Shown one piece after another: positions 7,242-36,074 of a stretch of 64,000 bases of DNA; position 1 is the stretch's first letter, and each line of letters begins with the position of its first letter. A program made the translations under genes and the position numbers. The notes beneath the pieces are model-generated. The model had not been told where the DNA came from. It did not search any database and saw only the letters and a list, made by a program, of their open reading frames with translations. Source of the DNA: Ignavibacteria bacterium. Its GTDB lineage: Bacteria; Bacteroidota; Ignavibacteria; Kapaibacteriales; UBA4661. The stretch lies in assembly GCA_014654705.1 (NCBI GenBank), contig JACVZY010000081.1, forward strand, positions 124,001 to 188,000, given 5' to 3'.

Positions 7242-7292
7242 CTGCATTACAGCTAACCGCATCACGGCTGATTGCATCACGGCTGACTGCAC
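7233..7292. repeat. Four tandem 15-bp units across the convergent 3' ends of two genes
   Basis: cacagctgactgcat/tacagctaaccgcat/cacggctgattgcat/cacggctgactgcac read directly. Confidence 0.9.
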
Positions 7293-8164
7293 CCACATTC
7301 TTTTGTCAAAAGCTCAGGTCGATACTCAAAGTGCATAGTATCGTAATGATACCACCTGCCGCCCCAGATAAAACCGTGCTTCTCAAAGATACGAACGATT
7401 GCAAGCGGGATGCGGTTTTTGTACGGGTACTGGTCTTCTGCGCTGACCTTCCAATGCCAATAGTCCGAAAATTTGATAGCAATGTCTATCGCAGCACCAA
7501 AACTATGATTGCTTTGCCGATTCGTGCCAGCAATCGTGCGCCATTTGAACGTTCCGGCTGGTTCCACGAGATATGGTCTGTATTCCGGCGGTAGCGCTTC
7601 CAGCTCATCGGAAACAGCTTTCAGCTTTTCATTCACGCCGTTAACGGTTGTTACAAGAAGGTTTTTTGCGGCTTCGGGAATATTTGCCAGCCAGCGCACG
7701 GGAGCGAGATGTTTGCCTACCTCTTCTTCCGTTGCGCCATACATCGTGCGGAAAAATGGTTCGTAGCGAATACGTCCCGGGTCAAAGTTGCGAGAAGGTG
7801 CTTCAATACTATCGTTTGCGCCATTACTCTGAGGCTGAGGATAGCATTGTGCTAACTGGTCGCGGAGCGTTGCCTTATCCAAAAAACCTTCCCATTCTTG
7901 CGTGGTGAGTACTTGACTGTTTTTGGGAATCGTCAGCCCTCCAAGCGGCATCACGACACCATTTCGCCAGTAGAGAGAGTCTTCGCTGCTGTGCGAGAGC
8001 ACGTCGGGGTAAGCGCTCACAAGCCGCTTCACACAGTCGCGCGACACTGCATTCGCTCCTGCGCTTGCATTCTGTGCTAAGGCGCGTTTTGGGGTTGCAG
8101 TACTGACAAACATCATGCAAACAGCAATGACCGTAGAAGCAAGGTTTCGTGCAAGGTGTAGCAT
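7277..8164 (-). CDS. M15 family metallopeptidase (D-alanyl-D-alanine carboxypeptidase, M15C-like)
   Basis: SNHSFGAAIDI and WYHYDTMHFEYRPEL motifs; signal peptide. Confidence 0.85.
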   Translation of the reverse strand: MLHLARNLASTVIAVCMMFVSTATPKRALAQNASAGANAVSRDCVKRLVSAYPDVLSHSSEDSLYWRNGVVMPLGGLTIPKNSQVLTTQEWEGFLDKATLRDQLAQCYPQPQSNGANDSIEAPSRNFDPGRIRYEPFFRTMYGATEEEVGKHLAPVRWLANIPEAAKNLLVTTVNGVNEKLKAVSDELEALPPEYRPYLVEPAGTFKWRTIAGTNRQSNHSFGAAIDIAIKFSDYWHWKVSAEDQYPYKNRIPLAIVRIFEKHGFIWGGRWYHYDTMHFEYRPELLTKECGCSQP

Positions 8165-8989: not shown

Positions 8990-9124
8990 TGCATTGCTGA
9001 GAAGTGGTGAGAAAATAGCAGAATCCGCAAAGACCAGTGTGGTGGCGGTCTCTGCGCTGCTGCAATGGACGAATAACGGCACAAGAGATTTTATGGGCTT
9101 CCGCAATTATTTCCATCAATCATT

Positions 9125-9219
9125 CTACGGCGTTTCTACAATGACTTGCACCGTGCGAGAGTAGAAGTGTCCTTCGGGCGGGTCGTTGTTGTGCAAGAAA
9201 TTGTTGTTGTGCAAGAAAA
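9125..9219 (-). pseudogene. Relic of an OmpA-family gene (last ~24 codons plus 5' junction)
   Basis: Minus-strand reading FLHNNDPPEGHFYSRTVQVIVETP* matches the end of the intact OmpA paralog at 21457 (LYNNDLPEGRFYSRTVRVIVETPQNE). Confidence 0.8.
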
Positions 9220-9242
9220 GGAATCAATAAAAAAAAAGGATC

Positions 9243-11558
9243 AAGAATCAAGGATCAATGGAAAATAGTAATGATAGTGGTTATGGTCTGGCTGGCGGTG
9301 CGAAGTTCCAGCGCATAGACGCCCGAAGCAAGGTCAGCCGTGTTCAGTCGGAGCGCCTGCTCGCCTTGCGGGACTTCACCCTCGAACAACAATCGCCGAT
9401 GCCCCAGCATATCCACCACCTGTACCACCACGCCCGTCGCTTCCTTCACTCGCAACTGCACACTCACGTCCGCCGTACTCGGATTCGGCGCTACCGCAAT
9501 GACCTGTACCCGCGGTGTGTACAGCAACCGTACGCCACCACCGGCGTAGTTCAAGCCCAATACTCGGTAGTGTGTCGGTACCGATGCCGCCAGAGCCACC
9601 CCACCGACAACCGCGGAATCCACCCGCACGGTCGTGGTGGTCGCATTGCCCAATAAACCACGCAGACGAAGACGCAGCAATGCCGCCTTGCTGTCCTCCG
9701 ACGGTATCAGCGTGCGGTAGGTCAACCACACACTATCCTGCTTTCGCTCCACGCCTGATGCTAACGGCGATAACACCTCCACCAGCGTCGCATTGCCAAT
9801 CTTCACCCGCACCACGGCTTCCATCCCACGCTCCACGCCCTTCCGATTCGTGAGCATGATGGGCAGCTCCGCTTCGTCATTCGAGGCAAGCCTCACCGTG
9901 TCCGGCAGTGTCACCACGCCCGCGACTACCCGCGCTTGAAGCGGCAGCAGGAGCACTCGTCCGCAGGAGTCCGCCACGCGGAGTGTGTCCCGCTCCACAC
10001 CGCCCATGCCACCCGCAAAGCTCACCCGTGCTTGTGTCTGGCTGTTGCCCGGGAGCGGGTTCATTCCCAACGAGTCCACCACAAACACCCCCGCACGGAG
10101 CGGTAAACGAAAACCCTGCGCTATCGTGCCCGTGTTGACGATGCTCACCGTGCGGCTTGCAGGCGTGTTGGCAGTGAAGCCACCAAAGTCAACCGCCGAT
10201 GGAATCGCCTGTAAGCCCGAGGAATCCTTTCGTACGGTGATAGCAACGATAGCTTCCGGCATATTGGCGGCATTCGAGCGAATACGCACACGCGCCGTGA
10301 AGAGACCTGTTTGTGCCGTTCGTGCAGTGATGACGATACTGTCCCGTCCCGTCCGAGCGCTTAGGGTCATCATTCTGTTTTGTGGCGAGAAGATGGTCAC
10401 GATACCGTTCGGATTGTCGAGAACATCAATACTGCTCACCACCACATCATCCGTGCCGATGCTGGCAAGCCGAATGGTGAGCGTGGTGGTGTTCTCGCAG
10501 AGCAAGCGCGAGGATACATCCGCTACCTGCGCCAAGCGCGGCTCCTTGCGGACTTCGCCAACGACTGTCAGTGCGAGCGGGCGACTACACGCGGGCGCAA
10601 GTGTGGAAGCGCCCTGAAGCGGAACGAGGCGCTCGGCTGCAAATCCTGCTACACCACCACTGAAGCGCACCACCATGCTTGAACTTCCCTGCGGTGGGGT
10701 GATGACCGACTCAATGCGTTCAATACTGAAGGTCGTGTCGATGCGGAATGGCAAGGGTGCTTGCGGCGTCACGGAATTCGTCCACGTAAGCGGCACGGTT
10801 CCGGTGTTTCGTATCGTCAGGGTATCGAAGAGCGGCGTGTACTCTTCCACCGTTGTCAGGCGGCGGGGTGGTCGGGTGAGCAGAAAACCGACGGAATCTT
10901 TCCGCCCAATCAAGACCACCCGAATCTCGCCCGCGCGTGCGCTTGCGGTGTCATTCGTTTTCAGCACGAGCGTTGCGGTACGAGTACCCGTATCAAGCGC
11001 TTGAAAGAGGAAGTCCAGTTGGGTGATTGCTTGTGGCTTCAGTGTCAATGCGCCTAAGCGTATCGAATCTTTCGGGAAGTCAAACTTATTCTCGCCTTCG
11101 ACGGCAAACGCATTTATCCGTAAATCAGCATCGCCGTCGTTGGAAATGGTAATTGTGCTTTGGGTCTGGCTTGCGCACGACAGTGAAGCAAGGCGAACCG
11201 TATCGGGAATCACGATTCGTGGCTGGGGGTCGAGAACGCGGGCGGTGAGGTCGAAACGGGTTTGTGTGCTACAGGGATCATTCATCGGTATATTCAGTCT
11301 TGCCGCAACGGGCATTGCCTCGCGTCTTCCGAGAAAGCGCACCGTAGCTGTCGCGGAAGTTCCGGCAGGAACGGGATTGGGTTCGACGCGCTCAAGGATG
11401 AAATCGTCGGTCAAGGCTCGGGGGAGTGTCCACCGATAGGGCTCGGTGCCGTGGTTGACAAAGGTTACCGTCCGCGCTCGGCTTGCACCAAAGCTCACGT
11501 TCCCGAAGTCCAGTGCGGGCGGTTGCCAGGAGTATTGGAAGACGGTCTTTTGTCCGCG
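9243..11558 (-). repeat. 2316-bp identical repeat, copy 1 (C-terminal part of giant T9SS gene)
   Basis: Same protein and the same nested alternative-frame ORFs as 23682..25997 (offset 14439); both boundaries located by eye. Confidence 0.9.
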
Positions 11559-14552
11559 TAATCGCACGGTGCGAGATGACCGCACCGGGTCGTCTGATGC
11601 CAGCACCACCGCGCTTTCGGTCAGACCGCCCACCAACGGCGCAAACGTCAACGGGATGTCGAGAAACTCAAAAGGTTGGATTTCGATGTCTTGTTTTTTT
11701 GCACTCGTTTGGAATACTTCGTTCAGAATACCGACATTAAAGATGCGGAGAATTTTTCCACCCGTGTTCCGCACTCGCAGTGTTGCACCGCTGCTGGTCT
11801 CGCAGACGAGATGCCCAAAATCCAAGAGCGAATCTACTTCTAAGCGTGGGGTATTCGGAACAATTTCTGCTGTTATGAGTAACTGACTTGTCGTCATGCC
11901 ACACCGAAGCACAGTGGAGGAATCACTAAACACACCTTCCTTATCCGTCCGCAAGAATGTCACATACACCCGCCCTGAATCGCCGGGGGCGACCATTCTG
12001 GGAGCGATGCTGTCAACGCGAAAACTTCCGGCAGCGCTTTGGAATTGTTGCTCGTCCATTTGTCCGCCTGTTTGGAGTGGCGGCGTTTGAGAGAACATCT
12101 GTCCATCCCAAGAGAGCGGCAGGGTGCTGAGGTTGCGAAAGGACACGCTGGCACTGGTGATGGAGTTTTGCAAGACACGCGCAAAACTGAGACGCAGATT
12201 GGTGGGCGAAATGGCTAGGGTGTCCTTGCGTCCTGTGAGTGTTATCCTTTCCAGTTCTACGCCGCTTGTATCGGTGAATATCATTTGGGCGGTGCGGTTG
12301 CCGAAGCTGCTGGGGGTGAAGCGCACTTCAAGTTGGCGCGTGGGGCTGTTTGCTGGGAGAGAAATTTTCGTTGTTGTGGGTGGAATAGCCACGCCATCAA
12401 GTGAAATCAAGGAAAAATCCGAGGCATTTGCACCTGTGATGGTCGGCAAAGCAATCGTAAGATTTTTTACGGAGGTATTGGTAAGGGGAATCGTCATCGT
12501 GCTGGAAGCAGCGCCGCATTGAAGGGCAGGAAAAGGGACATTCGCCACACGGAGCGCACCACGAGGAAGAATAGTCCACAAAGAATCGGATATGTCTTCT
12601 TGGCAGGGGATTTGGTCAACGTTCACGCTGGCGATGAGGACGGTACTATCGGGAGCCGAATTATATGGATTTTGAGCAGGAAAAATAGTATTTCGAGAAA
12701 AAATTCTCGGACTATAGAGCAGAAGCCGCTTCCCATCAGAACTCCATTGCAAAGGAGTATTGAAAAAGGTTCGCTTTGAGGCAGCGTTTGTGTCATCAGG
12801 AAACGGCAATCGAAACGTCTGAAGGAGGCATCCTGTCTGTGCATCCCAAATGCCGACCGTATTGGTAATATTCTTTTCTGGAGATGTTGAAATATCTCGC
12901 CAGACAAACCCTGCAATATACCGACTATCAGGACTCCACGTTATACTAGATTTGGTGGGTGAGATATTATCTACATTCGCTACCCCCCAATTATACCAAC
13001 CAGTCCAACTTGACGAGCTTGTGCTAAAGTCGTAATTATTCACCCACCATCCCTGCATATTTCGTATTGTCGGTTGTATATCTCCGGTTTGTGCATCAAG
13101 TACCAAGCGCTTTGTAGCATCAATAAAAGAAGTAGGTGGTTCTACAAGATATTTCCGACTGTCGGCACTCCAATTTCCGCCATTCCAATTGTATGCTGTA
13201 AATAATCCAAAAGAAATACTGACCTTCTGCGTTTGCCCTGTGTATGTATTCACAAACAAGAATGTATGGTTTTGCTGACCGTTGCTCGGGGGCTGAACGA
13301 AAACAATCAAAGAATCATTGGGTGACCATGAATTGGCATTAGCAAAACCACCACCACCCCAAGCATAATTCCCCCAATTAGTTAAATTCGGAATAGTCCC
13401 AATAGTTCGTAGCACCGCATTATCTCGCGTGCTGTTAATAGTAATAAATTGTGAATTACATCCGATGCTATCATTGCTATAAGAGAGCCACCGCTCACCG
13501 TCATGGCTAATCTTACCATTAGTCCAGCCTCCCCAAAGAGAAGAATAGCAGCCAGTATTTTTTCCCCAGACGATCATCCCTGTTTGGAAAGGAGTATTGG
13601 AAAGCACACCCGTGCTTGCATCAAAGCGCATCATCACGGAGCGCAAGGTGTCGAATAAACCCGATGAATTTGGCAGATTAAAAAAATGATACTGAACCGA
13701 AATAAGAACTTCTTGCCCTGCGCCTGCCCATTGCATATTGGCAATACGAGTACGGTTGCCACGGATTGGTACAGATATGTTCCGAATCAGTGCTCCTGTT
13801 TGCGCATTATATATTCCAAACGTTGAATCACTTATCTGAGCGAGAAGTGATTTATTATCTGGATTCCAGCTTGAGAAGGTGCTTGTACCCTGTCCATAGC
13901 CACCACCCCAAGCGCCATAATACCATGGATAGTACCGAGGCGAAGAAATATCGGAAGTATAGGATGGCAGCGTGTAGAGAAATGCACCAGTTTTACCATC
14001 ACGAACTTGCACGGTAAATTTCTGCCATCCACCTAAGACACCACCACTACCTGCGAGAATGGGTTCAGACCAAGAACCTGCGAGAATTTTTGTACCATCA
14101 GGGCTAAAGTTTACCGATTCCATTGCTTGATAGCTATTGCCACTTGATGTAACTGCCAACTCGGAGTGTTTAACTTGAAACCGCACGAGCGACCTTCCCA
14201 CACTCTCCGTTGAATCCGCAGCCATGCCCGTCGCAAGAATAAGACACGAATCACTTGCTTCGTTGGGGATGGGCTTCCAGAGATATGAGCCGCCAAGCGC
14301 TCTGTCGGTGATGCGTTTCCATGACTTTCCACCATTAGTGCTATACTCCAAGCGCACCGGACGGGCAGAGTCTATACCCGTCCACTTGATAGTGTACTCG
14401 GAGCCTGATTGCAAGCGCTCTTTGCCGTTAGGCTGAAGAAGGCGTAACTGCTTGCTTGCAGGCAGGGTCTGCCCGAAGGAAATGACTGCAAAAACCGTCA
14501 ATTCGGCAAGGCAGCATACGAAGAGTAACCAGAAGGAGCGAACAGATTTCAT
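9255..14552 (-). CDS. Giant T9SS-secreted protein: PNGGE-type Ig-like domain, WD40/beta-propeller, choice-of-anchor D/ASPM repeats, C-terminal sorting domain
   Basis: LLQPNGKERLQSGSEYTIKW; repeated WSPDSR/WNPDNK blade motifs; many LDFGxVxxG...VxxxNxG repeats; IAVAPNPSTADVSVQL...GVYALELRT C-term. Confidence 0.9.
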   Translation of the reverse strand: MKSVRSFWLLFVCCLAELTVFAVISFGQTLPASKQLRLLQPNGKERLQSGSEYTIKWTGIDSARPVRLEYSTNGGKSWKRITDRALGGSYLWKPIPNEASDSCLILATGMAADSTESVGRSLVRFQVKHSELAVTSSGNSYQAMESVNFSPDGTKILAGSWSEPILAGSGGVLGGWQKFTVQVRDGKTGAFLYTLPSYTSDISSPRYYPWYYGAWGGGYGQGTSTFSSWNPDNKSLLAQISDSTFGIYNAQTGALIRNISVPIRGNRTRIANMQWAGAGQEVLISVQYHFFNLPNSSGLFDTLRSVMMRFDASTGVLSNTPFQTGMIVWGKNTGCYSSLWGGWTNGKISHDGERWLSYSNDSIGCNSQFITINSTRDNAVLRTIGTIPNLTNWGNYAWGGGGFANANSWSPNDSLIVFVQPPSNGQQNHTFLFVNTYTGQTQKVSISFGLFTAYNWNGGNWSADSRKYLVEPPTSFIDATKRLVLDAQTGDIQPTIRNMQGWWVNNYDFSTSSSSWTGWYNWGVANVDNISPTKSSITWSPDSRYIAGFVWRDISTSPEKNITNTVGIWDAQTGCLLQTFRLPFPDDTNAASKRTFFNTPLQWSSDGKRLLLYSPRIFSRNTIFPAQNPYNSAPDSTVLIASVNVDQIPCQEDISDSLWTILPRGALRVANVPFPALQCGAASSTMTIPLTNTSVKNLTIALPTITGANASDFSLISLDGVAIPPTTTKISLPANSPTRQLEVRFTPSSFGNRTAQMIFTDTSGVELERITLTGRKDTLAISPTNLRLSFARVLQNSITSASVSFRNLSTLPLSWDGQMFSQTPPLQTGGQMDEQQFQSAAGSFRVDSIAPRMVAPGDSGRVYVTFLRTDKEGVFSDSSTVLRCGMTTSQLLITAEIVPNTPRLEVDSLLDFGHLVCETSSGATLRVRNTGGKILRIFNVGILNEVFQTSAKKQDIEIQPFEFLDIPLTFAPLVGGLTESAVVLASDDPVRSSRTVRLRGQKTVFQYSWQPPALDFGNVSFGASRARTVTFVNHGTEPYRWTLPRALTDDFILERVEPNPVPAGTSATATVRFLGRREAMPVAARLNIPMNDPCSTQTRFDLTARVLDPQPRIVIPDTVRLASLSCASQTQSTITISNDGDADLRINAFAVEGENKFDFPKDSIRLGALTLKPQAITQLDFLFQALDTGTRTATLVLKTNDTASARAGEIRVVLIGRKDSVGFLLTRPPRRLTTVEEYTPLFDTLTIRNTGTVPLTWTNSVTPQAPLPFRIDTTFSIERIESVITPPQGSSSMVVRFSGGVAGFAAERLVPLQGASTLAPACSRPLALTVVGEVRKEPRLAQVADVSSRLLCENTTTLTIRLASIGTDDVVVSSIDVLDNPNGIVTIFSPQNRMMTLSARTGRDSIVITARTAQTGLFTARVRIRSNAANMPEAIVAITVRKDSSGLQAIPSAVDFGGFTANTPASRTVSIVNTGTIAQGFRLPLRAGVFVVDSLGMNPLPGNSQTQARVSFAGGMGGVERDTLRVADSCGRVLLLPLQARVVAGVVTLPDTVRLASNDEAELPIMLTNRKGVERGMEAVVRVKIGNATLVEVLSPLASGVERKQDSVWLTYRTLIPSEDSKAALLRLRLRGLLGNATTTTVRVDSAVVGGVALAASVPTHYRVLGLNYAGGGVRLLYTPRVQVIAVAPNPSTADVSVQLRVKEATGVVVQVVDMLGHRRLLFEGEVPQGEQALRLNTADLASGVYALELRTASQTITTIITIFH

Positions 14553-14594
14553 ACGTCAGTGAACAAAAAGGTTATTTGCGTGAGAATTTAGGAT

Positions 14595-16871
14595 TCATTG
14601 ATTCAGTGGTGTTTCCACAATCACGCGCACCGTGCGGCAGTAAAAGCGCCCTTCGGGAATAGCGTTGTCAAAGAGCAACTCGTCTTTGCCCACACCGCGC
14701 ACCACTACTTGTTCTGACGGATTCTCCTCGCCTGTGATAGTGCGGGCGATTTGCTTGGCACGCTCCAGCGAGAGTTTGCGGTCATATTCCGCCGTGCCGG
14801 TGCGGTCAGTATAGCCCACCACGGCAAGGTCGGAATACGGCTTGATGTGGGTTTTGATAAAGTCTATGGTAAATTGTTGCGCCTCACTTGTTCGGCTTTC
14901 GTTGAATTCAAAAAGCATCATGCTAAATTCCTCAAACTCCTTGTCTTTCCTTCTCTCGCGGCGTTTTTTCTGAACAGTAATTTGCTTAATAGGTAAAGAA
15001 ACCGCTTCCGACTGGGCGACATTTCCTTCGGCATCGGAGAGTTCGGGATTGATAATAAATGGCTCGGTCAGCAGCGCCAAATCTCGTCCTTGCATCCGTG
15101 CTTCTTTTGCAAAATCCCAATCAAGCGTTGGCGGTGGCGCACCCGCACTGTCGAACGTCCGCACGGTATCGCCTTTGTGCGTGATGGTAAGCCGCCATGA
15201 CCGAATTTCGCGCTCCGTCTCGGTGTGCGTCAGTATTCTTGCCGTTGGCGGCGATGCAGTCCGCACGGTATCTGCCACGATAAGCCATTCCAAGATTTCG
15301 GGCACAGAAGCGCTTATTTCCACGCGGCGATTTTCCTCGCTTTTGTCTGCCTCGGCAGATGGCAGCGAAGGCTTTTCGGAAAGATTACGCGCTTTGGTAC
15401 TAATCCGTTCCGGCGCAATACCCCACACATCGCATAAATACTGCTTTACCGCTTTTGCTCGTGCTTCGGACAGGGCAAGATTGCCTTTCTCAGCGCCAAC
15501 ATTTGCATTGCAACCCGTCAGCGTCAGTGTGGCTGTAGGAAGCCGCTTCATGCGCTCTCCCAGCACGTTCAGGATGTTGTGATAGAGTGTAAGGGCTTCG
15601 CCTTTTCGCAAACGAGTTGCCTGAAATGACGCGGCTTCTTCCCGCGTTAGCAGCACGTAGCGAGACGGTATTTCGGCAGAACGCTCGGCAAAAAACACAT
15701 AATTCAAAAGCGGAAAATACTTCTGCCCGATAATTTCTTCGATGCGGATTTCGGGAAGCGCTGTTTCTTTCCCATTCGCTTGCACGCCAAGCGCCGCAAT
15801 GGAAAAGCGCATGGCGGGTTTGCGGAGCACAATCTTCGTCGTGATAAGCGTGTCGGTGCGGCGTTGCAGCGATTTTATCGTCCTGAGATTTCCTGTCCAT
15901 ACCGTATCGCTGCCCCTGCCGACATTGCCAATAATGAGACTGTCGGGTAGGCTTGTCATAACAAGGCTTTCACGGGTTTTCACGATGCGAACGGTGTCTA
16001 TCCATTCATAGTGTTCGCGGCGCTCGGTTTGGCGTGGAAACTCATATTTGAGTGCTATTCCGGCACGAATTTGCGCCATGTTCCAAAAATTTCCCGATGA
16101 AAAGCCCTCCAGAATAGGATTGACACCAAGCATCCCAACTATCTCCGGCACAATCAGCACGCGCCCCGCAATGCCATCCGCACCAAGCGGCACGGGCAAT
16201 TCGTAGGCAAGACCACCAAGCGCGGAAAGCATAAAGCCCGCAAGCGGCAAATCGCCGGAAACGCTGGATGCTTTGAGCATGACAGGACCGGGGTCGCCGC
16301 GTTTATCATACACGGAGGATTGCACAAAAGTGCGTCCTTCCAACGGCACAGCACCCGCAAGCCCCAACGAAACAAGTACGTTCGGCAGAGGCTTCCATAG
16401 AGCAGTCGCTTCGGCACTTACTGTGGAAAGCGAGAAGGAAAGGGTATGCTCCAGAGTAGGGTAATACTCTTTCTGTGCATCATTCGGATCCAACGTAAGA
16501 GTACGTTGTGTGGCACGGAGTGTGCCGCCGTGCGAAGCAATCATTCCCCGGAGACCAAGCATGAAGGATTCATCAAATGGTATTTCCACAAGTGCGCCCA
16601 GCGTGAGGCTTGCAGTGAAGCCGCTTCTGAAAGACATATCATTTGGTATGTCAGGTGAAGTAATGTATGGGAGTGCAAAGGTTGTCCTGTAGCCCGGAAT
16701 AGTCGTAAAATTTGGTAGATGCAATGTAAAATTCCCACCGCCAAGTAACCCCACGCGTACAGTCGGCGGAATGGCTGGATTGACCGCCGTGCTGCTTTGC
16801 AGAAGTGTCTGCGCAGGCAAAATCGCAAGGGCATAAAAAGTGGTAATGAGAAAAAGGCTGGCAAAGCGCAT
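14595..16871 (-). CDS. Outer-membrane protein with N-terminal barrel-like region and two OmpA-like domains
   Basis: GYTDRTGTAEYDRKLSLERAKQIA C-terminal OmpA motif plus an internal OmpA-like block (LTLTGCNAN...LSEARAKAVKQYL...ENRRVEI); internal Met chosen for signal peptide MRFASLFLITTFYALAILPAQ (ORF track 16895). Confidence 0.87.
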   Translation of the reverse strand: MRFASLFLITTFYALAILPAQTLLQSSTAVNPAIPPTVRVGLLGGGNFTLHLPNFTTIPGYRTTFALPYITSPDIPNDMSFRSGFTASLTLGALVEIPFDESFMLGLRGMIASHGGTLRATQRTLTLDPNDAQKEYYPTLEHTLSFSLSTVSAEATALWKPLPNVLVSLGLAGAVPLEGRTFVQSSVYDKRGDPGPVMLKASSVSGDLPLAGFMLSALGGLAYELPVPLGADGIAGRVLIVPEIVGMLGVNPILEGFSSGNFWNMAQIRAGIALKYEFPRQTERREHYEWIDTVRIVKTRESLVMTSLPDSLIIGNVGRGSDTVWTGNLRTIKSLQRRTDTLITTKIVLRKPAMRFSIAALGVQANGKETALPEIRIEEIIGQKYFPLLNYVFFAERSAEIPSRYVLLTREEAASFQATRLRKGEALTLYHNILNVLGERMKRLPTATLTLTGCNANVGAEKGNLALSEARAKAVKQYLCDVWGIAPERISTKARNLSEKPSLPSAEADKSEENRRVEISASVPEILEWLIVADTVRTASPPTARILTHTETEREIRSWRLTITHKGDTVRTFDSAGAPPPTLDWDFAKEARMQGRDLALLTEPFIINPELSDAEGNVAQSEAVSLPIKQITVQKKRRERRKDKEFEEFSMMLFEFNESRTSEAQQFTIDFIKTHIKPYSDLAVVGYTDRTGTAEYDRKLSLERAKQIARTITGEENPSEQVVVRGVGKDELLFDNAIPEGRFYCRTVRVIVETPLNQ

Positions 16872-16937
16872 AAAATCTTGATGATATTCGAGCAACGTTG
16901 ATTTGATACAAGAGCGTAATGAGTTATTTATTCAAGT

Positions 16938-17049
16938 TAGGACTTTCGCAAAAAATTGGAGTGCGGAATTTATTCCGCATATTTACTGGTATTTTGCAGC
17001 ATTGCGGAATAAATTCCGCACTCCAAAGCTCTCACTTGCGAAAGTCCTA
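16938..17049. mobile_element. 112-bp MITE-like element with 14-bp perfect TIRs and 5-bp TSD
   Basis: TIR taggactttcgcaa at both ends; inner 24-bp inverted repeat ttggagtgcggaatttattccgca (16956-16979 / 17003-17026); flanking direct repeat caagt (16933-16937 and 17050-17054); no ORF. Confidence 0.82.
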
Positions 17050-17061
17050 CAAGTCAGAAAC

Positions 17062-17113
17062 AATCCCAGTAATCCTCCCAATCCCAACTAATCCCAGTCA
17101 GGAATCCCAGTCC
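17062..17113. repeat. Degenerate AATCCCA (GGGATT on coding strand) tandem repeats
   Basis: caatcccagtaatcctcccaatcccaactaatcccagtcaggaatcccagtcc read directly. Confidence 0.8.
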
Positions 17114-17114
17114 T

Positions 17115-20100: not shown

Positions 20101-21335
20101 GCCGAGCAAGAATTAGTCTTCACCTCGAACCGCGCAAAGGTGAGCGAGGAATCGCGCGGCTGAAAGCGTAAGGTGAGCTGGCGGCTTTCGCCCGCTTGGA
20201 GCGTGAAATTGGTCGGCGTAACGGTGAAGGCAGCATTGGTACTGGTGGTGAGGATATTCGTCACGGTGAAGGGTGCATTTTCGGCACGAATGGTAATCAC
20301 GGTGTCGCGCACAGAGCCGGGCGGCACACCATAGAACCGCACCGAAAAAGGAGTAACGCTGAGACGCGCCACTGCTTGCTGCGGCACGTCGTAGTCTGCG
20401 GAGACCGCCAGCGAATCCGGCGACGTGCTGAGGCGAGCCGTGATGCTGCCCGTGCGGGTATCGCATACCGCCTCGCCGCGCCACGTGAACTCGCACGGCG
20501 TACGCCCCTGCGCAAGCTGTACGATTGCTTGATACACCTGCGTAATGCGGATGAAATCGTTCACATTCTCGAAGCATACGCCGCCCGTGCGCCGCGCAAT
20601 ATTTTTGATAAACGGCGGCGCGGGAAGCCCGACGGCAACGCAATAAATCTCGACCTTGTTTTGCACTGCCGCGCTGACGACAGCATTTTCGTCGCCGTCG
20701 CTCAGTCCGTCGGTCAGAAAGACCACCACGCGCTTATTGCGTCCATTGCGGGCAATCGGGATGCTGCCGGTGGGTTCGGTGAGCAAGCCGTTCATGTAGC
20801 TTGTACCGCCGCCCGCTTGGAAAGCCGCGATAGCGTTCAAAAGCGCATCACGTTGGGCGGTGAAGTCTTGATTGATGTAGCTTTCGTGGTCAAAGCTGGA
20901 AACTGCTGCTTCCGAAGGCGGCAGCGCGAGCGCCCGAACAAAGGCGGAAGAGGCTTGCTGCGCGAGTTGGAGATTGGAGTACTTACCGCGTCCGCCCGCC
21001 ATCGAACCGGAAATATCCAGCGTCAGCACGGCTGAAATGGGTTGCAATCCCGTCGGTGGCGGACAGGTAACGCCCGTAACGGTGCGGCTCACGCCGTTTT
21101 CCCGAAGAACAATATCTTGCGGAGAAATCGCATTCTGAATGGGTTTGCCGTCCGCACCAAAGGCAAAAAACCGTGCTTTCATGGTCGGAAACGACGAAGC
21201 ATCCACATCAAACACGGAAAGCGTTTGTGCGGGAAGCGAAAGGGAAGCAAGAATATATGCGGCTACCAGAGCGCACGTAAAGCGAAACATGAACGAGAAG
21301 AGCATAGAGAATTTCCCGAAAAAAAAGACGTACAT
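17115..21335 (-). CDS. T9SS-secreted protein: VWA domain, PNGGE Ig-like domain, WD40 propeller, ASPM-like repeats, C-terminal sorting domain
   Basis: LDISGSMAGG MIDAS; LRITSPNGGETFLAGADTVITW; WDVRTG WD repeats; ISPNPALGGFTVRYETK...GVYHVRLQAGEVVMVRRVVV. True start may be 21305 or 21290. Confidence 0.9.
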   Translation of the reverse strand: MYVFFFGKFSMLFSFMFRFTCALVAAYILASLSLPAQTLSVFDVDASSFPTMKARFFAFGADGKPIQNAISPQDIVLRENGVSRTVTGVTCPPPTGLQPISAVLTLDISGSMAGGRGKYSNLQLAQQASSAFVRALALPPSEAAVSSFDHESYINQDFTAQRDALLNAIAAFQAGGGTSYMNGLLTEPTGSIPIARNGRNKRVVVFLTDGLSDGDENAVVSAAVQNKVEIYCVAVGLPAPPFIKNIARRTGGVCFENVNDFIRITQVYQAIVQLAQGRTPCEFTWRGEAVCDTRTGSITARLSTSPDSLAVSADYDVPQQAVARLSVTPFSVRFYGVPPGSVRDTVITIRAENAPFTVTNILTTSTNAAFTVTPTNFTLQAGESRQLTLRFQPRDSSLTFARFEVKTNSCSALLYAAGGFPPVPVVQPTLRITSPNGGETFLAGADTVITWEGVLPTDTVRLQYSIDSGRTWRTITDSATGLRYAWRYVPNTPSEKCLMRVMSNTINIDVINLKGHKGDIASISFSFDGSKVVTTSRDKTAKIWDVRTGSELVSIIINSSTNPFFEPYWASFHPNGKQIVTSDDSEKGIKLWDIDSKTLLNSIDIRNYNSITNRLGGSRTIFFHNSGNNILVPSDSNAVVLDAISLQTIRTFKSPKGLGSATFSPDYKLVIGAGGTFVKIWNAETGAEIQTLNSPNSSLLTFASIDPQNSKIGIVTYSSNNASVIDIITGSTICSLSLKNFPSLIIGGATIFFNPEGTQVLVATDSRGAFIADAFTGEILKSYYSFPNIQTWISCATYSPDGNKIALAGALQGGFSDSTAKIITLPRYAQVSTSASVWSIVAPQLAVSTNSTTPIDMGAALVGAQKDSVVQAFVVNSTPYPVRVDSIRFEGAQASEFSLVSGVPPFTVAPGASQAVEFRFSPRSAGLRTATIVLVTQSQTVRTAIQGTGIQPSLTQSARLLDFGRVLVGTAKDTTFTAILRNTGAATLTLSAPRLGLPDAVQFSVQSFGAVGASGIASSHTLRPGDSAAITLRFAPTRLGRTSGQVQFRYAAQGASGSFAPLTLGLFGEGIMLPLTARPLVDMGSVVVSAFKDSTVQAFITNPNAQAVSLDAIRFENSQSLAEAQDFSCQTALPLRIPANSTVALTFRFRPSAVGRRTAQMVIGAETQTLTATIQGNGTETPVIRTAALQAPTLTSRVGGTVQIPIYLKNRTGPIPLGTTISATLGYYYALLRPLAPTPVGSVSGSQRLIPLSLTVGSPDENIPLTTLSFRAALAVQQTTPLTFSQLAANPAITLTPQSGEFRLVDAPPATFGAGTSFGTEREEQATARILDISPNPALGGFTVRYETKQAATISILNALGTVAAVFTASADGEWSVSTAGWAAGVYHVRLQAGEVVMVRRVVVMP

Positions 21336-21456
21336 TCAAGAGAGTGCATCTACTCTGCACTATGAGGCAAATATACTCAAGAAATCTGGAAAAGAGTAGC
21401 GTTAAAAGCAAGGGAAGTATTTGTAGGACGACCTAACGTCTTACTCATTTTGCGTC

Positions 21457-23667
21457 TTACTCATTCTGCGGTGTTTCCACAATCACGCGCACCGTGCGAG
21501 AGTAGAAGCGCCCTTCGGGCAAATCGTTGTTGTACAGCTCCAAACTGGATCCGTAGCCCATCACATTGGTCTTTTGCTGTTCCGCCGTGAAGCCCAGAGC
21601 CTGTGCCACGCCGAGCGCACGTTGCAGCGAGAGTTTGCGATTAAATTCTGCCTCGCCTGTGCGGTCGGTGAACCCATCTACGCGCACCGTAGAGCGCTCC
21701 GTGATGCGGGTACGCATGAGGTTCATCATTGGTTCTTGTTCGCTCGTAATCGTGCTTTTGGCAAAATCGAACAAGATGAGATTGAAGCGTTCCACCAGTT
21801 TCCCCGCAAAGTAGCTACTGGTTCTTGTTCGCTTGCTGTTTTTCTCTTCGGTGCGGGTTTCGAGTGGGATTGCTGCTGTGGCCGAACGGTATAAATTACC
21901 GTCCGCATCAATGCAGGAAAATGAGTATTCAAGCGGCTCGACGGCTTGCCCTTGCTGTACGGATTCATCCAGATGCAACGCTGCCAGTTCACGCTCGTCC
22001 ATGCGCCAGTCTTGCACTTCTGCCAGCGCACCTGTACCGCGAAGTTCCTTGACAATCGTTCCCGACTGACGAACCACGATTTTCCACGACCGCACCGAAT
22101 CAATGTTTGCCACGCTTAGACGAAAGCGCACACTTGGCGGCGACACGCGACGCACGGTATCAATGAGCGTTATATTTGCCAAAATTTCCGGCGTGTCCGA
22201 GCGTAGTTCCACGCGGCGATTTTCGGCTTGTTTGTCGGCATCACTGAGCGGAATGGACGGGGTGGTGGGGGCAGTGGTGTTGTCCACGAGCTTTAACTGC
22301 GTGGCGGGAATTTGCCAGACATCCCGCAAATACCGCATGACAACTTGTGCGCGTGCTTTGGCAACATCTGCTTTGTCGCGCTCTGCCGTAAAGCCGTCGG
22401 TGCAGCCGTGAATACTCAGCACCGCTTTAGGCAAACGCCGGAGCCGCTCACCAACTACGTTCAGAACGTTGTAGTACGAATGTTCTTTCGGTGTAAGTTC
22501 GTAGGCAGAGGAGAGTTTGGACTCGCGGAATGTTTTTGTTTCCTCACGTGTGAGCGTGGAGTAGCGCTCCGAAAGGGCAGTAGCACCGATGCCGTCAAAA
22601 AATATGTACGGTAGCAGTGGAAAAACACTCCGCGAAATCGTCTGCTGAACGCGCAGAATCACGCTCGGTTGCTCTTCATTTATGCCGATAGTATTCCCTA
22701 CTGCCTGCTCCGATACTGGCAAGCCGAAGGCTTTCACAGCAAGCACAGGAGAGGGCTTTGCGGTGTCCACGGGCGGCGGTGGGGGCGGCAGTGGCGGCTT
22801 GGGCAATGGTAACGAAACGGCAACACCACCGCGAATCTGTTGCACTGTCCATTGCGTTTGGCTATTAATTTCGCTTGCTGCCACAAGCCCCGTAAATCCA
22901 AACGAGTACGTGATTTCGGGAGTAATTCGCACGCGCTCAGTAATATCAATGTCGTAACCGATGCCGCCAGAGAGCGCCAACTGGAGCGATTGTGCGCTCG
23001 GTAGAGCAAATGAGCTTACATTGCGCTCTTTGACAATTTTGGTAGGGTCAAAACTAATACTCGCATCGGTGAGCAAGCGTTCCTGCTGCGTTATCGTCGT
23101 CGGCATCATAAGCGAAGTCCGAATGCCAGCCGAAAGATGCAAGCCCCCAAGAATCGTATATTTTGCCAGAGCATCAATGCCAAGCATCGGAATTTGCGCT
23201 GCCATACCAAACTCAACCGGAGCAAGAATACTGCTTGCGGGGGCATTTGCCGATTGCGGAAGCCCAAAGCGTACGTCTTGCCGAGTGGTGAGAAGTGCGT
23301 CGTACCGCGAGTACGAAGCCCGCGCAAGAAGTGCCAGTTGCCCCGTGAGAGGTATTTCAAGCAAAACGCCCGCCGTAAAGCCTATTCCCGAACCATTCTG
23401 AAAGTTTGGTGGACGAGGAGTTTTGTCGTTGTCGGGGTTTGGTATCCAAATTGGGAACAATACAAATTCAGGAAAATTGGCGGTATGCCGATTCAAATTG
23501 GCTCCGCCAAAAGCACCAACTCGTAGTAAAGGCTCATCCGAACGAAGTTGTGCAGAGAGTGTGCCATTGGCAAAAGTGAACAGAACAAAGAAGAGAAACA
23601 GTCCGAACATCCTGCTCCATTTACTTTGAGGGCTTCGTTGTCCGTTGGTAGTACGTGAAGTTTTCAT
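21457..23667 (-). CDS. Outer-membrane protein with two OmpA-like domains (paralog of 14595..16871)
   Basis: DGFTDRTGEAEFNRKLSLQRALGVAQAL; internal Met MKTSRTTNGQ... followed by hydrophobic leader; the ORF-track start (23697) uses TTG. Confidence 0.87.
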   Translation of the reverse strand: MKTSRTTNGQRSPQSKWSRMFGLFLFFVLFTFANGTLSAQLRSDEPLLRVGAFGGANLNRHTANFPEFVLFPIWIPNPDNDKTPRPPNFQNGSGIGFTAGVLLEIPLTGQLALLARASYSRYDALLTTRQDVRFGLPQSANAPASSILAPVEFGMAAQIPMLGIDALAKYTILGGLHLSAGIRTSLMMPTTITQQERLLTDASISFDPTKIVKERNVSSFALPSAQSLQLALSGGIGYDIDITERVRITPEITYSFGFTGLVAASEINSQTQWTVQQIRGGVAVSLPLPKPPLPPPPPPVDTAKPSPVLAVKAFGLPVSEQAVGNTIGINEEQPSVILRVQQTISRSVFPLLPYIFFDGIGATALSERYSTLTREETKTFRESKLSSAYELTPKEHSYYNVLNVVGERLRRLPKAVLSIHGCTDGFTAERDKADVAKARAQVVMRYLRDVWQIPATQLKLVDNTTAPTTPSIPLSDADKQAENRRVELRSDTPEILANITLIDTVRRVSPPSVRFRLSVANIDSVRSWKIVVRQSGTIVKELRGTGALAEVQDWRMDERELAALHLDESVQQGQAVEPLEYSFSCIDADGNLYRSATAAIPLETRTEEKNSKRTRTSSYFAGKLVERFNLILFDFAKSTITSEQEPMMNLMRTRITERSTVRVDGFTDRTGEAEFNRKLSLQRALGVAQALGFTAEQQKTNVMGYGSSLELYNNDLPEGRFYSRTVRVIVETPQNE

Positions 23668-23681
23668 GGAATCAATAAAAA

Positions 23682-25997
23682 AAGAATCAAGGATCAATGG
23701 AAAATAGTAATGATAGTGGTTATGGTCTGGCTGGCGGTGCGAAGTTCCAGCGCATAGACGCCCGAAGCAAGGTCAGCCGTGTTCAGTCGGAGCGCCTGCT
23801 CGCCTTGCGGGACTTCACCCTCGAACAACAATCGCCGATGCCCCAGCATATCCACCACCTGTACCACCACGCCCGTCGCTTCCTTCACTCGCAACTGCAC
23901 ACTCACGTCCGCCGTACTCGGATTCGGCGCTACCGCAATGACCTGTACCCGCGGTGTGTACAGCAACCGTACGCCACCACCGGCGTAGTTCAAGCCCAAT
24001 ACTCGGTAGTGTGTCGGTACCGATGCCGCCAGAGCCACCCCACCGACAACCGCGGAATCCACCCGCACGGTCGTGGTGGTCGCATTGCCCAATAAACCAC
24101 GCAGACGAAGACGCAGCAATGCCGCCTTGCTGTCCTCCGACGGTATCAGCGTGCGGTAGGTCAACCACACACTATCCTGCTTTCGCTCCACGCCTGATGC
24201 TAACGGCGATAACACCTCCACCAGCGTCGCATTGCCAATCTTCACCCGCACCACGGCTTCCATCCCACGCTCCACGCCCTTCCGATTCGTGAGCATGATG
24301 GGCAGCTCCGCTTCGTCATTCGAGGCAAGCCTCACCGTGTCCGGCAGTGTCACCACGCCCGCGACTACCCGCGCTTGAAGCGGCAGCAGGAGCACTCGTC
24401 CGCAGGAGTCCGCCACGCGGAGTGTGTCCCGCTCCACACCGCCCATGCCACCCGCAAAGCTCACCCGTGCTTGTGTCTGGCTGTTGCCCGGGAGCGGGTT
24501 CATTCCCAACGAGTCCACCACAAACACCCCCGCACGGAGCGGTAAACGAAAACCCTGCGCTATCGTGCCCGTGTTGACGATGCTCACCGTGCGGCTTGCA
24601 GGCGTGTTGGCAGTGAAGCCACCAAAGTCAACCGCCGATGGAATCGCCTGTAAGCCCGAGGAATCCTTTCGTACGGTGATAGCAACGATAGCTTCCGGCA
24701 TATTGGCGGCATTCGAGCGAATACGCACACGCGCCGTGAAGAGACCTGTTTGTGCCGTTCGTGCAGTGATGACGATACTGTCCCGTCCCGTCCGAGCGCT
24801 TAGGGTCATCATTCTGTTTTGTGGCGAGAAGATGGTCACGATACCGTTCGGATTGTCGAGAACATCAATACTGCTCACCACCACATCATCCGTGCCGATG
24901 CTGGCAAGCCGAATGGTGAGCGTGGTGGTGTTCTCGCAGAGCAAGCGCGAGGATACATCCGCTACCTGCGCCAAGCGCGGCTCCTTGCGGACTTCGCCAA
25001 CGACTGTCAGTGCGAGCGGGCGACTACACGCGGGCGCAAGTGTGGAAGCGCCCTGAAGCGGAACGAGGCGCTCGGCTGCAAATCCTGCTACACCACCACT
25101 GAAGCGCACCACCATGCTTGAACTTCCCTGCGGTGGGGTGATGACCGACTCAATGCGTTCAATACTGAAGGTCGTGTCGATGCGGAATGGCAAGGGTGCT
25201 TGCGGCGTCACGGAATTCGTCCACGTAAGCGGCACGGTTCCGGTGTTTCGTATCGTCAGGGTATCGAAGAGCGGCGTGTACTCTTCCACCGTTGTCAGGC
25301 GGCGGGGTGGTCGGGTGAGCAGAAAACCGACGGAATCTTTCCGCCCAATCAAGACCACCCGAATCTCGCCCGCGCGTGCGCTTGCGGTGTCATTCGTTTT
25401 CAGCACGAGCGTTGCGGTACGAGTACCCGTATCAAGCGCTTGAAAGAGGAAGTCCAGTTGGGTGATTGCTTGTGGCTTCAGTGTCAATGCGCCTAAGCGT
25501 ATCGAATCTTTCGGGAAGTCAAACTTATTCTCGCCTTCGACGGCAAACGCATTTATCCGTAAATCAGCATCGCCGTCGTTGGAAATGGTAATTGTGCTTT
25601 GGGTCTGGCTTGCGCACGACAGTGAAGCAAGGCGAACCGTATCGGGAATCACGATTCGTGGCTGGGGGTCGAGAACGCGGGCGGTGAGGTCGAAACGGGT
25701 TTGTGTGCTACAGGGATCATTCATCGGTATATTCAGTCTTGCCGCAACGGGCATTGCCTCGCGTCTTCCGAGAAAGCGCACCGTAGCTGTCGCGGAAGTT
25801 CCGGCAGGAACGGGATTGGGTTCGACGCGCTCAAGGATGAAATCGTCGGTCAAGGCTCGGGGGAGTGTCCACCGATAGGGCTCGGTGCCGTGGTTGACAA
25901 AGGTTACCGTCCGCGCTCGGCTTGCACCAAAGCTCACGTTCCCGAAGTCCAGTGCGGGCGGTTGCCAGGAGTATTGGAAGACGGTCTTTTGTCCGCG
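23682..25997 (-). repeat. 2316-bp identical repeat, copy 2
   Basis: See 9243..11558. Confidence 0.9.
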
Positions 25998-28900
25998 AAG
26001 CACAATTGAGCGCTGCGTGTTCCGCAGATCGTCTGAGTTCAGTACCACCACGCTTTCGGTCAGACCGCCCGAAGAAGGAATAAAAGTCAGAGGTAGGAAC
26101 AGTGTGTCAAATGGCTGTACGATGAGCACCATTCCTCGTGTGAACGTCGTTTTGAATACATCGCTCAATACACCCACATTGAAGATTTGAAGCGGCTTGC
26201 CACCTGTATTCCGCACACGGAGCGTGGCTACGCTACTTGTTTCACAAATCAAACGTCCGAAACTTAGCAGTGAATCTACTTCCATACGCGGAAAATTTGG
26301 AATCACCTCTGCCGTTACGATGAGTTGATGTAGCCCTGTGCCGCACCGCAGCACCGTTGCCGAATCACCAAAAATACCTTCTTTGTCCGTACGCAAGAAC
26401 GTTACGTAAAACCGCCCGCTGTCGCCGGGGCTAACCATTGCGGGCGATAGGCTATCCACACGAAAGCGTCCTGCCGCGCTTTGGAACTGCTGTCCACCCG
26501 TCATTTGTCCGCCTTGTTGCAGGGGCGAGGTTTGGGTGAGCATTTGCCCATCCCAGTAAAGCGGTACAGTGCTGAGGTTGCGGAAGGACACACTCCCGCT
26601 CGTGATAGAATTTTGTAGAACACGTGAAAAGTTCAGGCGCACCGAAGGTGTGGCAAGAGCCAGTGTATCCTTCCGACCGTAGAGTGTGATAGTTTCCAGT
26701 TCCACGCCGCTTGTATCAGTGAAGGTCATTTGTGCCACACGGTCGCCGAAGTCGCTTGGCGTGAAGCGGACTTCTAATCGCTTTTCGTACTTGATCGTGG
26801 TCATAGTCAGCGTCGTGATGGTATCTACTGGAGCACCATCCACCGAAATCAGTGAAAAATCCGAGGCATTTGCGCCCGTAATGGTCGGGATATTGATAAC
26901 CATCGTCTTTGAAGTCGTATTGGAAACAGGGAAGGTCACTGAACTGGAAGCTGGACCGCACTGCACCGTCGGGAAGGAAACATTTGCCACACGCAGCGCA
27001 CCGCGCGGGAGAATGGTAAAGACTGAATCCGACCTGTCTTCTTGGCAGGGGATTTGGTCAATGTTCACGCTGGCGATGAGCGCCGTACCGTCGTAGGTGA
27101 TTGAACCAAAACCGGAATCAATCTGAAACTGTCCGTTAGCAAATGATGACGAAGCGTATCGACGCTGCGCGTACTTTAGAGGACTAAAAAGCAGGAGACG
27201 TTTTCCGTCGGCGCTCCATTGGGGGGTGGTATTGAAAAATGAGCGTCTGGGTTCATCCGCAGTTCCATCAGGAAATGGCAGACGAAATGTTTGTAGCAAG
27301 CAACCTGTTTGTGAATCCCATATTCCGACCGTGTTCAAAAAATTATCTTGCCGAATACTATTGCTTCGTAATTGCCAAAGAAAACCAGTGACAAAGCGAC
27401 CATCAGGACTCCATGCAAATGTGGAGTTGGAAGCCGAACCGCTTCCGGTTCCATTTCCATAACCTCCCCAGCCATAGCCTCCCCAGCCATAACCCCAGTA
27501 ATCGCCATTAGTTATTCTATTACGCAAAGCAGGCTGCACAACTCCGGTATAGACATCGGCAATATAGCTTGTTGGAGCTACACCTCTTTGCCCAAATCCC
27601 CCCAGAATCCATTGCTGCTCCATATAATCCCCAAAGAGAATCCGGCGACTATCGGGACTCCATTGAGTGTTATTGTACCAACCATAATTATACCGAGAAA
27701 GGGCTATGCGCTGGATAGGCTGCCCATTGAGTGCGCTGATGATGTTTACTCCAGTTCCACCATTATTCGTTTGGTAGTCGTATATGGCAAGCAATGAATC
27801 ATTTGGTGACCATGTTGAACCATTGCCACCGTAGCCACCACCCCAATTACTCCAATAGTACACACCTCCCGACAAGGTAGGAAGAGTTACGAGAATCGAA
27901 TTATCGCGAGTGCTACGAATAACTTGGCTGCCAGGGTTACAATAAGTGCTATCATTGGTAAATGTTAAACGGCGTTCACCATCGTTGCTGATATTTCCTC
28001 CTCCTCCTCCGTACCCCCACCCGCCGTAATTACATCCAGTACTATTGAAAACAAAAAAACCTATGCGAAAAGGAGTATTAGCAAGCGCTCCGCTAGCAAC
28101 ACTGAAGCGCATCATCATAGTTTTCATCGTATCAAGGTACCCCGTGTTAGTGGCAGGGTAAAAAAATCGGTGTTGAACCGTTGCCAGAATTTCCTGCCCT
28201 TGTGCTGCCCATTGCATAGCGACACATCGTGTGGCATTACCTTGCGTCGGTACGGTGATGCTGCGAACAAGCGTACCTGTTTGCGCATCAAAGACTCCGA
28301 AGGCTGTATCAGAAATCTGCGATAGAAGCAAGCGTCCGTCGGGACTCCAGCGCCCTTGACCAGAACCGCCCCAGCCGTTGCCCCAGCCACCACCCCAACC
28401 ATACCAACCCCAATAACTGTTTCGAGTATAGTTTATACTATCAATAATATACGGCGGTAGGGTGTAGAGTATCGCGCCAGTCTTGCCATCACGCACTTCA
28501 AAATTGGTTTGCCGCCAACCTAAGTAACTTGTACTGCTCCCAATCTGCTGGGAGAAGGAGGTAACAAGAATCTTTGTGCCGTCGGAGCTAAAACTCGCCG
28601 ATTCACCGCCCCAATAGTTACTATTATACTGAGATTGCGAACGCGGTACCTGAAACTGCACGAGCGACCGATTGACGCTTTCAGTAGAATCTGCCGCCAG
28701 TCCCGTCGCAAGAATCAAGCACGAATCGCTTGGCTCGTTTGGAATGGGCTTCCAGAGATACTCACCGCCCAGCGCTTTGTCGGTAATGAGTTTCCACGAC
28801 CTACCGTTATCAATACTGTATTCCAAGCGCACCGGACGCGCAGAATCTATACCCGTCCACTTGATGGTGTACTGGGAGCCAGATTGCAAACGCTCCTTGC

Positions 28901-29030
28901 CGTTAGGCTGAAGAAGGCGTAATTGCTTGCTTGCAGGCAAGGTCTGCCCGAAGGAAGTTATTGGAAACACGGTTAAATTGGCAAGGAAACAAGCGCATAC
29001 CAGCCAGAATGTGTATTGGTAATGATTCAT
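23694..29030 (-). CDS. Giant T9SS-secreted propeller/choice-of-anchor D protein (paralog of 9255..14552)
   Basis: Same architecture; long C-terminal part identical to 9255..14552; W/G/Y-rich inserts in the propeller. Confidence 0.9.
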   Translation of the reverse strand: MNHYQYTFWLVCACFLANLTVFPITSFGQTLPASKQLRLLQPNGKERLQSGSQYTIKWTGIDSARPVRLEYSIDNGRSWKLITDKALGGEYLWKPIPNEPSDSCLILATGLAADSTESVNRSLVQFQVPRSQSQYNSNYWGGESASFSSDGTKILVTSFSQQIGSSTSYLGWRQTNFEVRDGKTGAILYTLPPYIIDSINYTRNSYWGWYGWGGGWGNGWGGSGQGRWSPDGRLLLSQISDTAFGVFDAQTGTLVRSITVPTQGNATRCVAMQWAAQGQEILATVQHRFFYPATNTGYLDTMKTMMMRFSVASGALANTPFRIGFFVFNSTGCNYGGWGYGGGGGNISNDGERRLTFTNDSTYCNPGSQVIRSTRDNSILVTLPTLSGGVYYWSNWGGGYGGNGSTWSPNDSLLAIYDYQTNNGGTGVNIISALNGQPIQRIALSRYNYGWYNNTQWSPDSRRILFGDYMEQQWILGGFGQRGVAPTSYIADVYTGVVQPALRNRITNGDYWGYGWGGYGWGGYGNGTGSGSASNSTFAWSPDGRFVTGFLWQLRSNSIRQDNFLNTVGIWDSQTGCLLQTFRLPFPDGTADEPRRSFFNTTPQWSADGKRLLLFSPLKYAQRRYASSSFANGQFQIDSGFGSITYDGTALIASVNIDQIPCQEDRSDSVFTILPRGALRVANVSFPTVQCGPASSSVTFPVSNTTSKTMVINIPTITGANASDFSLISVDGAPVDTITTLTMTTIKYEKRLEVRFTPSDFGDRVAQMTFTDTSGVELETITLYGRKDTLALATPSVRLNFSRVLQNSITSGSVSFRNLSTVPLYWDGQMLTQTSPLQQGGQMTGGQQFQSAAGRFRVDSLSPAMVSPGDSGRFYVTFLRTDKEGIFGDSATVLRCGTGLHQLIVTAEVIPNFPRMEVDSLLSFGRLICETSSVATLRVRNTGGKPLQIFNVGVLSDVFKTTFTRGMVLIVQPFDTLFLPLTFIPSSGGLTESVVVLNSDDLRNTQRSIVLRGQKTVFQYSWQPPALDFGNVSFGASRARTVTFVNHGTEPYRWTLPRALTDDFILERVEPNPVPAGTSATATVRFLGRREAMPVAARLNIPMNDPCSTQTRFDLTARVLDPQPRIVIPDTVRLASLSCASQTQSTITISNDGDADLRINAFAVEGENKFDFPKDSIRLGALTLKPQAITQLDFLFQALDTGTRTATLVLKTNDTASARAGEIRVVLIGRKDSVGFLLTRPPRRLTTVEEYTPLFDTLTIRNTGTVPLTWTNSVTPQAPLPFRIDTTFSIERIESVITPPQGSSSMVVRFSGGVAGFAAERLVPLQGASTLAPACSRPLALTVVGEVRKEPRLAQVADVSSRLLCENTTTLTIRLASIGTDDVVVSSIDVLDNPNGIVTIFSPQNRMMTLSARTGRDSIVITARTAQTGLFTARVRIRSNAANMPEAIVAITVRKDSSGLQAIPSAVDFGGFTANTPASRTVSIVNTGTIAQGFRLPLRAGVFVVDSLGMNPLPGNSQTQARVSFAGGMGGVERDTLRVADSCGRVLLLPLQARVVAGVVTLPDTVRLASNDEAELPIMLTNRKGVERGMEAVVRVKIGNATLVEVLSPLASGVERKQDSVWLTYRTLIPSEDSKAALLRLRLRGLLGNATTTTVRVDSAVVGGVALAASVPTHYRVLGLNYAGGGVRLLYTPRVQVIAVAPNPSTADVSVQLRVKEATGVVVQVVDMLGHRRLLFEGEVPQGEQALRLNTADLASGVYALELRTASQTITTIITIFH

Positions 29031-36009: not shown

Positions 36010-36034
36010 AGCCTATTGTGATAAAATTTGGAGC

Positions 36035-36071: not shown

Positions 36072-36074
36072 TCG

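Follow-up and report, generated by a model that had tools for sequence, protein, structure and literature searches.

Genes for predicted giant type IX secretion cargo are paired with barrel and double-OmpA partner genes across the Kapabacteria

Among the closest working analogues of the genes described here are SprB-SprF and PorE-PorP-PG1035 (PMC9143113, PMC12618676), and type B cargo of the type IX secretion system (T9SS) requires a barrel gene directly downstream for its secretion (PMC12618676). The tagged surface receptor TraA forms an operon with TraB, which combines a barrel with an OmpA domain (PMC12045341), and the giant surface adhesin AtaA is cotranscribed with a downstream gene for the OmpA-domain protein TpgA, which binds both AtaA and peptidoglycan (PMC5861075). 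Here we analyse a 64,000-nucleotide stretch of an Ignavibacteria bacterium genome (GCA_014654705.1, contig JACVZY010000081.1, positions 124,001 to 188,000; herein the window), in which genes for giant predicted T9SS cargo proteins are followed by genes for predicted outer-membrane partners with two OmpA-type domains. This two-gene module is real and order-wide; no description of such a pairing of giant cargo with double-OmpA protein was found in the open-access literature, the sole literature covered.

Read in the direction of transcription on the minus strand, the locus comprises giant-1778, OmpA-746, VWA-giant-1406, OmpA-766, giant-1765 and an OmpA relic (Table 1). The five long minus-strand open reading frames (ORFs), of 1778, 746, 1406, 766 and 1765 amino acids, were recovered with the places, sizes and order given in the original prediction, an earlier reading of the sequence alone. 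The threefold alternation of giant and OmpA genes that it described consists of two intact pairs; the third is a remnant, and giants 1 and 3 (giant-1778 and giant-1765) are paralogs. The relic that it proposed is genuine: nucleotides 9195-9120, past the stop codon of giant-1765, align at 84% (E = 2e-16) to the 3' terminus of ompA-746, and the reading frame ends in NNDPPEGHFYSRTVQVIVETP followed by a stop codon.

The source genome (G000; its contigs are labelled C) is a metagenome-assembled genome (MAG) of the Kapabacteria, 5.7 Mb in size and 99% complete, whose closest named relatives are Candidatus Kapaibacterium/Ignavibacteria MAGs. It encodes the T9SS machinery (SprA, 794 bits; PorV, 265 bits; PorU, 805 bits) and has 150 sorting-domain matches. 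All three giants score above the curated cut-off of 23 bits for TIGR04183, the NCBIfam model of the T9SS type A C-terminal sorting domain (CTD), with 30.5 bits for giant-1778 and 35.3 bits for the VWA giant; the NCBIfam scan of the giants returned CTDs of type A only. Choice-of-anchor-D/ASH immunoglobulin (Ig)-like domains occur in all three. Their description as propeller proteins fits the VWA giant, which has clear WD40 matches in Pfam, better than giants 1 and 3, whose heads give weak propeller matches in Pfam; an AlphaFold2 (AF2) model of the giant-1778 head is modest (predicted local distance difference test [pLDDT], 67; predicted template modelling score [pTM], 0.73), and its best Protein Data Bank (PDB) matches are WD40 propellers.

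Pfam, together with an AF2 model of OmpA-766, confirms the proposed architecture of the partners, a barrel-like N terminus with two OmpA-type domains. Both OmpA-type domains are found by Pfam in OmpA-766 (P0004) and the last one in OmpA-746 (P0002). The model (mean pLDDT, 86) comprises an 8-strand barrel (residues 47-285), a disordered linker (292-355), a first OmpA-type domain (OmpA1), an Ig-like domain (538-640) and a second OmpA-type domain (OmpA2); PDB matches of the partner using Foldseek and HMMER are OprF/OmpA peptidoglycan domains and OmpA-type barrels. Among 72 sequences, the ligand-binding Asp/Arg pair is kept in OmpA2 (D697, 68/72; R712, 68/72; P0004 numbering), and by analogy with the known family we infer that these residues bind peptidoglycan; in OmpA1 the Arg is kept (R479, 72/72) and the Asp is not. 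The listed starts of both OmpA ORFs are TTG, but the real starts are probably the ATGs at 23667 and 16871, which precede signal peptides. OmpA and OprF porins also join an 8-strand barrel to a C-terminal peptidoglycan-binding domain; the partners differ from them in the second OmpA-type domain, the Ig-like insert, the many copies per genome and the tie to cargo genes. On contig C90 of the source genome, three further double-OmpA proteins (96135-98426, 105556-107997 and 114018-116138) have an N terminus that, in an alignment judged by eye, looks propeller-like (BNR or PD40 type) in place of the barrel, a PorE-like layout.

The pairing withstood the check that the original prediction had set for refuting it, on co-occurrence and adjacency of the two families in related genomes. 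Within the source genome, the same-strand 5' neighbour is a CTD gene for 12 of the 22 barrel-type partners; a conservative count of 12/26, with ~4,700 genes assumed, gives a binomial p of 7e-12. On 80 contigs from other Kapabacteria (L100-L179), picked by similarity to one paired partner, a CTD gene lies directly 5' of 40 of the 62 partners compared with 39 of 501 other ORFs (Fisher p about 1e-23), and the order is biased, with a CTD gene 5' of the partner in 40/62 and 3' in 13/61. Intergenic distances computed from mechanical start codons place cargo and partner in a 4-base overlap in 17/39 and within 60 bp in 37/39. Genomes of the same genus and family, the source genome included, have 52 of 79 partners paired, as are about 10 of the 14 partner genes read in same-order or same-class genomes outside the family. 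Loci homologous to giant-1778 carry a partner directly 3' in 14 of 21 cases, several of the negatives being cut by contig ends. A search of relatives covered 61 genomes (source genome counted) and recovered partner-family genes from every one, with at least 8 copies each; partner homologs occur in 30 of the 248 genomes of a phylum sample that also counts the source: 20 of the same order (source included), 4 others of the same class and 6 distant. The proposal that each T9SS cargo is paired with a cognate envelope partner is partly supported, insofar as this adjacency recurs; the pattern itself is broader, since ice-binding-type adhesin genes that lack a CTD precede distant partner homologs.

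The alternation in the window might instead be a functionally meaningless product of tandem duplication, to which the paralogy of giants 1 and 3, with their identical tract, and the third OmpA as a deletion remnant would point. As a full explanation this is refuted by the recurrence of the cargo-partner order at many unrelated loci, in other genera and families, and we give it hardly any credence, although duplication does explain the likeness of the third pair to the first. The DNA of giants 1 and 3 is 100% identical over 2316 bp and drops abruptly to ~60-75% on the head side. Because the heads (46% identical) have diverged beyond giant-1778 and its sister-species counterpart (52%), the two giants must have duplicated long ago, whereas the identical tract is recent. 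The natural reading of the tract is recent homogenisation by gene conversion; or it may be an assembly artefact, a collapsed repeat. As paralogs with a shared identical tract, giants 1 and 3 are not independent instances of pairing. Elsewhere in the source genome, two nearby giants have nearly identical sorting domains (C11:30485-30724 and 35976-36215), possibly another homogenised pair.

We consider it somewhat probable that the locus is made of two-gene surface modules, each a T9SS cargo with a wall-tethered outer-membrane partner. The upstream gene would supply the giant cargo (head, Ig/ASH stalk and type A CTD), which would enter the periplasm via Sec and cross the outer membrane via the T9SS of SprA, PorV and PorU; from the downstream gene, which in many cases overlaps the first or lies a few bases from it, would come the 8-strand barrel, the flexible linker and a periplasmic OmpA1-Ig-OmpA2 portion. 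The outer face of the barrel would hold the emerged cargo and OmpA2 would grip peptidoglycan, whereby a very large surface protein would be mechanically tied to the cell wall and not solely to lipid or lipopolysaccharide (LPS). We infer the physical contact between cargo and partner, the part of the cargo that is held, the binding to peptidoglycan and the role of the head in adhesion or ligand binding. Giant 3 has lost its partner; since it has exactly the stalk and CTD of giant 1, OmpA-746 could serve both.

The module resembles SprB-SprF, in which a dedicated outer-membrane barrel gene comes after the T9SS cargo gene, and PorE-PorP-PG1035, in which PorE supplies an OmpA-type peptidoglycan-binding domain. 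It differs in having type A CTDs, whereas SprF/PorP cargo is type B; in a partner barrel predicted to be 8-stranded with an OmpA-type match, unlike the 14-strand FadL-type barrel of SprF, PorP and PorV; and in combining the barrel and two OmpA domains in one protein, unlike either system. These differences bear on whether the partner is rather a dedicated secretion shuttle that takes cargo from SprA, as SprF/PorP do for type B cargo, the OmpA part only positioning it. In its favour, the gene order is that of the type B cargo that need a downstream barrel gene for secretion (PMC12618676), and the PorP/SprF model TIGR03519 had no match in the source genome, but control genomes gave none either and the search lacked a positive control. 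Against such a role, the cargo CTDs are of type A, PorV, which the genome encodes, is the usual shuttle for that type, and the predicted barrel has 8 strands and not the 14 of the PorV/PorP type; we regard it as quite unlikely.

TraA-TraB also joins a surface protein with a C-terminal sorting tag to a barrel/OmpA partner that binds the cell wall. In that system of myxobacterial outer membrane exchange, however, the tag is MYXO-CTERM and TraB combines TSP3 repeats with a single OmpA domain, whereas the heads here are diverse propellers; the TraB model NF033763 scores 25.8 bits (cut-off, 700). A TraAB-like cell-cell recognition, with variable heads recognising neighbours and the barrel-OmpA partner anchoring the contact, would suit the two-part operon layout, the variation of heads above homogenised stalks and the appearance of the TraB model as a weak NCBIfam match. 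It sits badly with heads of many unrelated folds (WD40, BNR/sortilin, CUB and VWA) in place of a single polymorphic receptor and with a TraB match far below its cut-off, and we judge it very improbable. AtaA-TpgA has the same order of a giant surface protein gene and a downstream OmpA-domain gene; AtaA, however, is a type V trimeric autotransporter fibre with its own barrel and TpgA is barrel-less, whereas the partner has a barrel and scores 44.6 bits with the TpgA model NF047726 (cut-off, 350). The claim that no named system matches is correct as to membership, the locus belonging to none of TraAB, AtaA-TpgA or SprB-SprF, but close functional analogues exist.

The CTDs of paired cargo cluster together, with 13 versus 26 label changes in the relatives (0/500 shuffles) and 7 versus 11.6 in the source genome (1/500), and are enriched in ExG and LQTP motifs. 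Hidden Markov models trained on the relatives separate the CTDs of the source genome (area under the curve, 0.79; p = 0.0025). The CTDs adjoining partners are a partly distinct subset. Across 52 pairs the CTD covaries with the barrel (partial r = 0.46) and not with the peptidoglycan half (-0.02); with close relatives removed, the CTD-barrel r is 0.25 (p = 0.004) and the others are about 0. Between the first window pair and its orthologs in the genomes G002 and G007, the stalk (54-57%) and OmpA1 (72-79%) are better matched than the CTD (31%) and the barrel (32-35%), while G002 and G007 compared with each other give 64% for the CTD and 61% for the barrel. In the second window pair the CTD and barrel have likewise diverged beyond the stalk and the OmpA half, to a lesser degree. 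We conclude that the barrel of a partner varies in step with the cargo.

Two genes of the source genome (C93:131923-136713 and C51:126075-130703) run from VWA-ASH-WD40-ASH into OmpA1-Ig-OmpA2 and have no CTD and no barrel. The search covered seven genomes of the same genus: the C93 fusion is full-length or nearly so in 7/7 (65-88% identical), and the C51 fusion has counterparts in most of them; these fusions are not assembly errors, because they are conserved across the genus. On a Rosetta-stone argument they tie the cargo family to the double-OmpA module. The six distant genomes of the same phylum each have a single partner homolog that adjoins a same-strand 5' gene of 480-760 amino acids. 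In the three of the six that were scanned (G087, G154 and G261; loci L231, L233 and L235), this gene is Big_5/ice-binding-like (PF11999) and has no T9SS CTD. At L232, L234 and L236 the 5' gene is similar in size to the Big_5/ice-binding-like genes. The partner family may thus have served large secreted proteins in the envelope before the Kapabacteria coupled it to T9SS cargo.

Both lines of evidence bear on a rival account, that cargo and partner are co-regulated envelope genes which make no physical contact, the OmpA paralogs stiffening the envelope. Such paralogs are abundant, many without neighbouring cargo, and adjacency with linked recombination would account for most of the covariation. 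The strongly biased gene order, the fusions of cargo-type domains to the double-OmpA module and the large adhesin-like genes that adjoin distant partner homologs argue the other way, and we think co-expression by itself unlikely.

Several points nonetheless weigh against wall tethering of the cargo by its partner. Type A cargo elsewhere is shuttled by PorV and needs no dedicated partner. About 10 of the 22 partners in the source genome have no cargo directly upstream, and the similarity-based choice of the 80 contigs may have inflated the proportion of paired partners there. Among 103 non-independent genus-level ortholog comparisons, the barrel-stalk partial r (0.66) exceeds that of barrel and CTD (0.37); some orthologs have switched CTD and kept the barrel (G003:C33), and the 12 pairs of the source genome alone show no CTD-barrel correlation. 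The CTD and the barrel are DNA neighbours, and shared recombination can also give covariation. The fusions, having neither CTD nor barrel, probably reside in the periplasm, and they do not put the heads on the surface. A first reading, docking of the CTD specifically on the barrel, was weakened, as the larger genus-level replicate did not single out the CTD.

Table 1. Features of the locus (positions are those of the window)
Feature	Position	Strand	Basis or remark
Giant cargo 1, 1778 aa: signal peptide, PNGxExL Ig-like segment, WD40-like propeller head, Ig/ASH (choice-of-anchor D) stalk, T9SS type A CTD	23694..29030	-	ORF, Pfam/NCBIfam, AF2 head
OmpA-746, partner of giant 1: barrel, linker, OmpA1, Ig-like, OmpA2	21457..23667	-	ORF opens 23697, probable ATG 23667
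VWA giant cargo 2, 1406 aa: VWA, ASH, PNGGE segment, WD40 propeller, ASH domains, T9SS type A CTD	17115..21335	-	Pfam/NCBIfam
Palindromic element resembling a miniature inverted-repeat transposable element (MITE), between cargo 2 and OmpA-766; terminal inverted repeats AGGACTTTCGCAA	16938..17048	.	
OmpA-766, partner of cargo 2: 8-strand barrel, disordered linker, OmpA1, Ig-like, OmpA2	14595..16871	-	ORF opens 16895, probable ATG 16871
Giant cargo 3, 1765 aa: cargo 1 paralog, head diverged (46% identity), C-terminal stalk and CTD identical	9255..14552	-	
OmpA relic, last ~21 codons of deleted partner gene; stop codon 9127-9125	9120..9195	-	
Tract of 2316 bp shared with giant 1 (there at about 23682-25997) at 100% identity	9243..11558	.	

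The MITE-like element (~110 bp) takes up about half of the 219 bp that separate the VWA giant from OmpA-766; it holds inner TGCGGAATNNATTCCGCA palindromes and has diverged copies elsewhere in the genome, several of them on contig C50. Just downstream of the locus, at 7277-8164, lies a gene for a secreted protein that by eye resembles an M15/VanY-type carboxypeptidase, with a possible link to the cell wall. On the plus strand, 54-5903 encodes a protein of 1949 amino acids in which repeats of the FG-GAP/IPT-like and leucine-rich types were noted by eye, as was a C terminus that resembles a sorting domain.

Type A T9SS cargo is thought to share the PorV shuttle and to end on LPS or in the medium. 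We put forward tentatively, as a possibility short of a probable one, that a special class of type A cargo arose in the Kapabacteria, each member neither released nor left on LPS but held by its own peptidoglycan-bolted outer-membrane barrel, a separate anchoring route whose matched pairs would recombine and diverge together. If true, wall-bound partners would be a third fate for type A cargo and would explain the many barrel-OmpA paralogs in these genomes. It would follow TraAB and AtaA-TpgA as a third independent instance of a surface protein joined in evolution to a peptidoglycan-binding OmpA partner, and the hundreds of natural pairs of cargo and partner could be used to test how giant surface proteins are held under mechanical load. 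The distribution of the pairs suggests that such a tethering module recurs throughout a poorly studied bacterial group.

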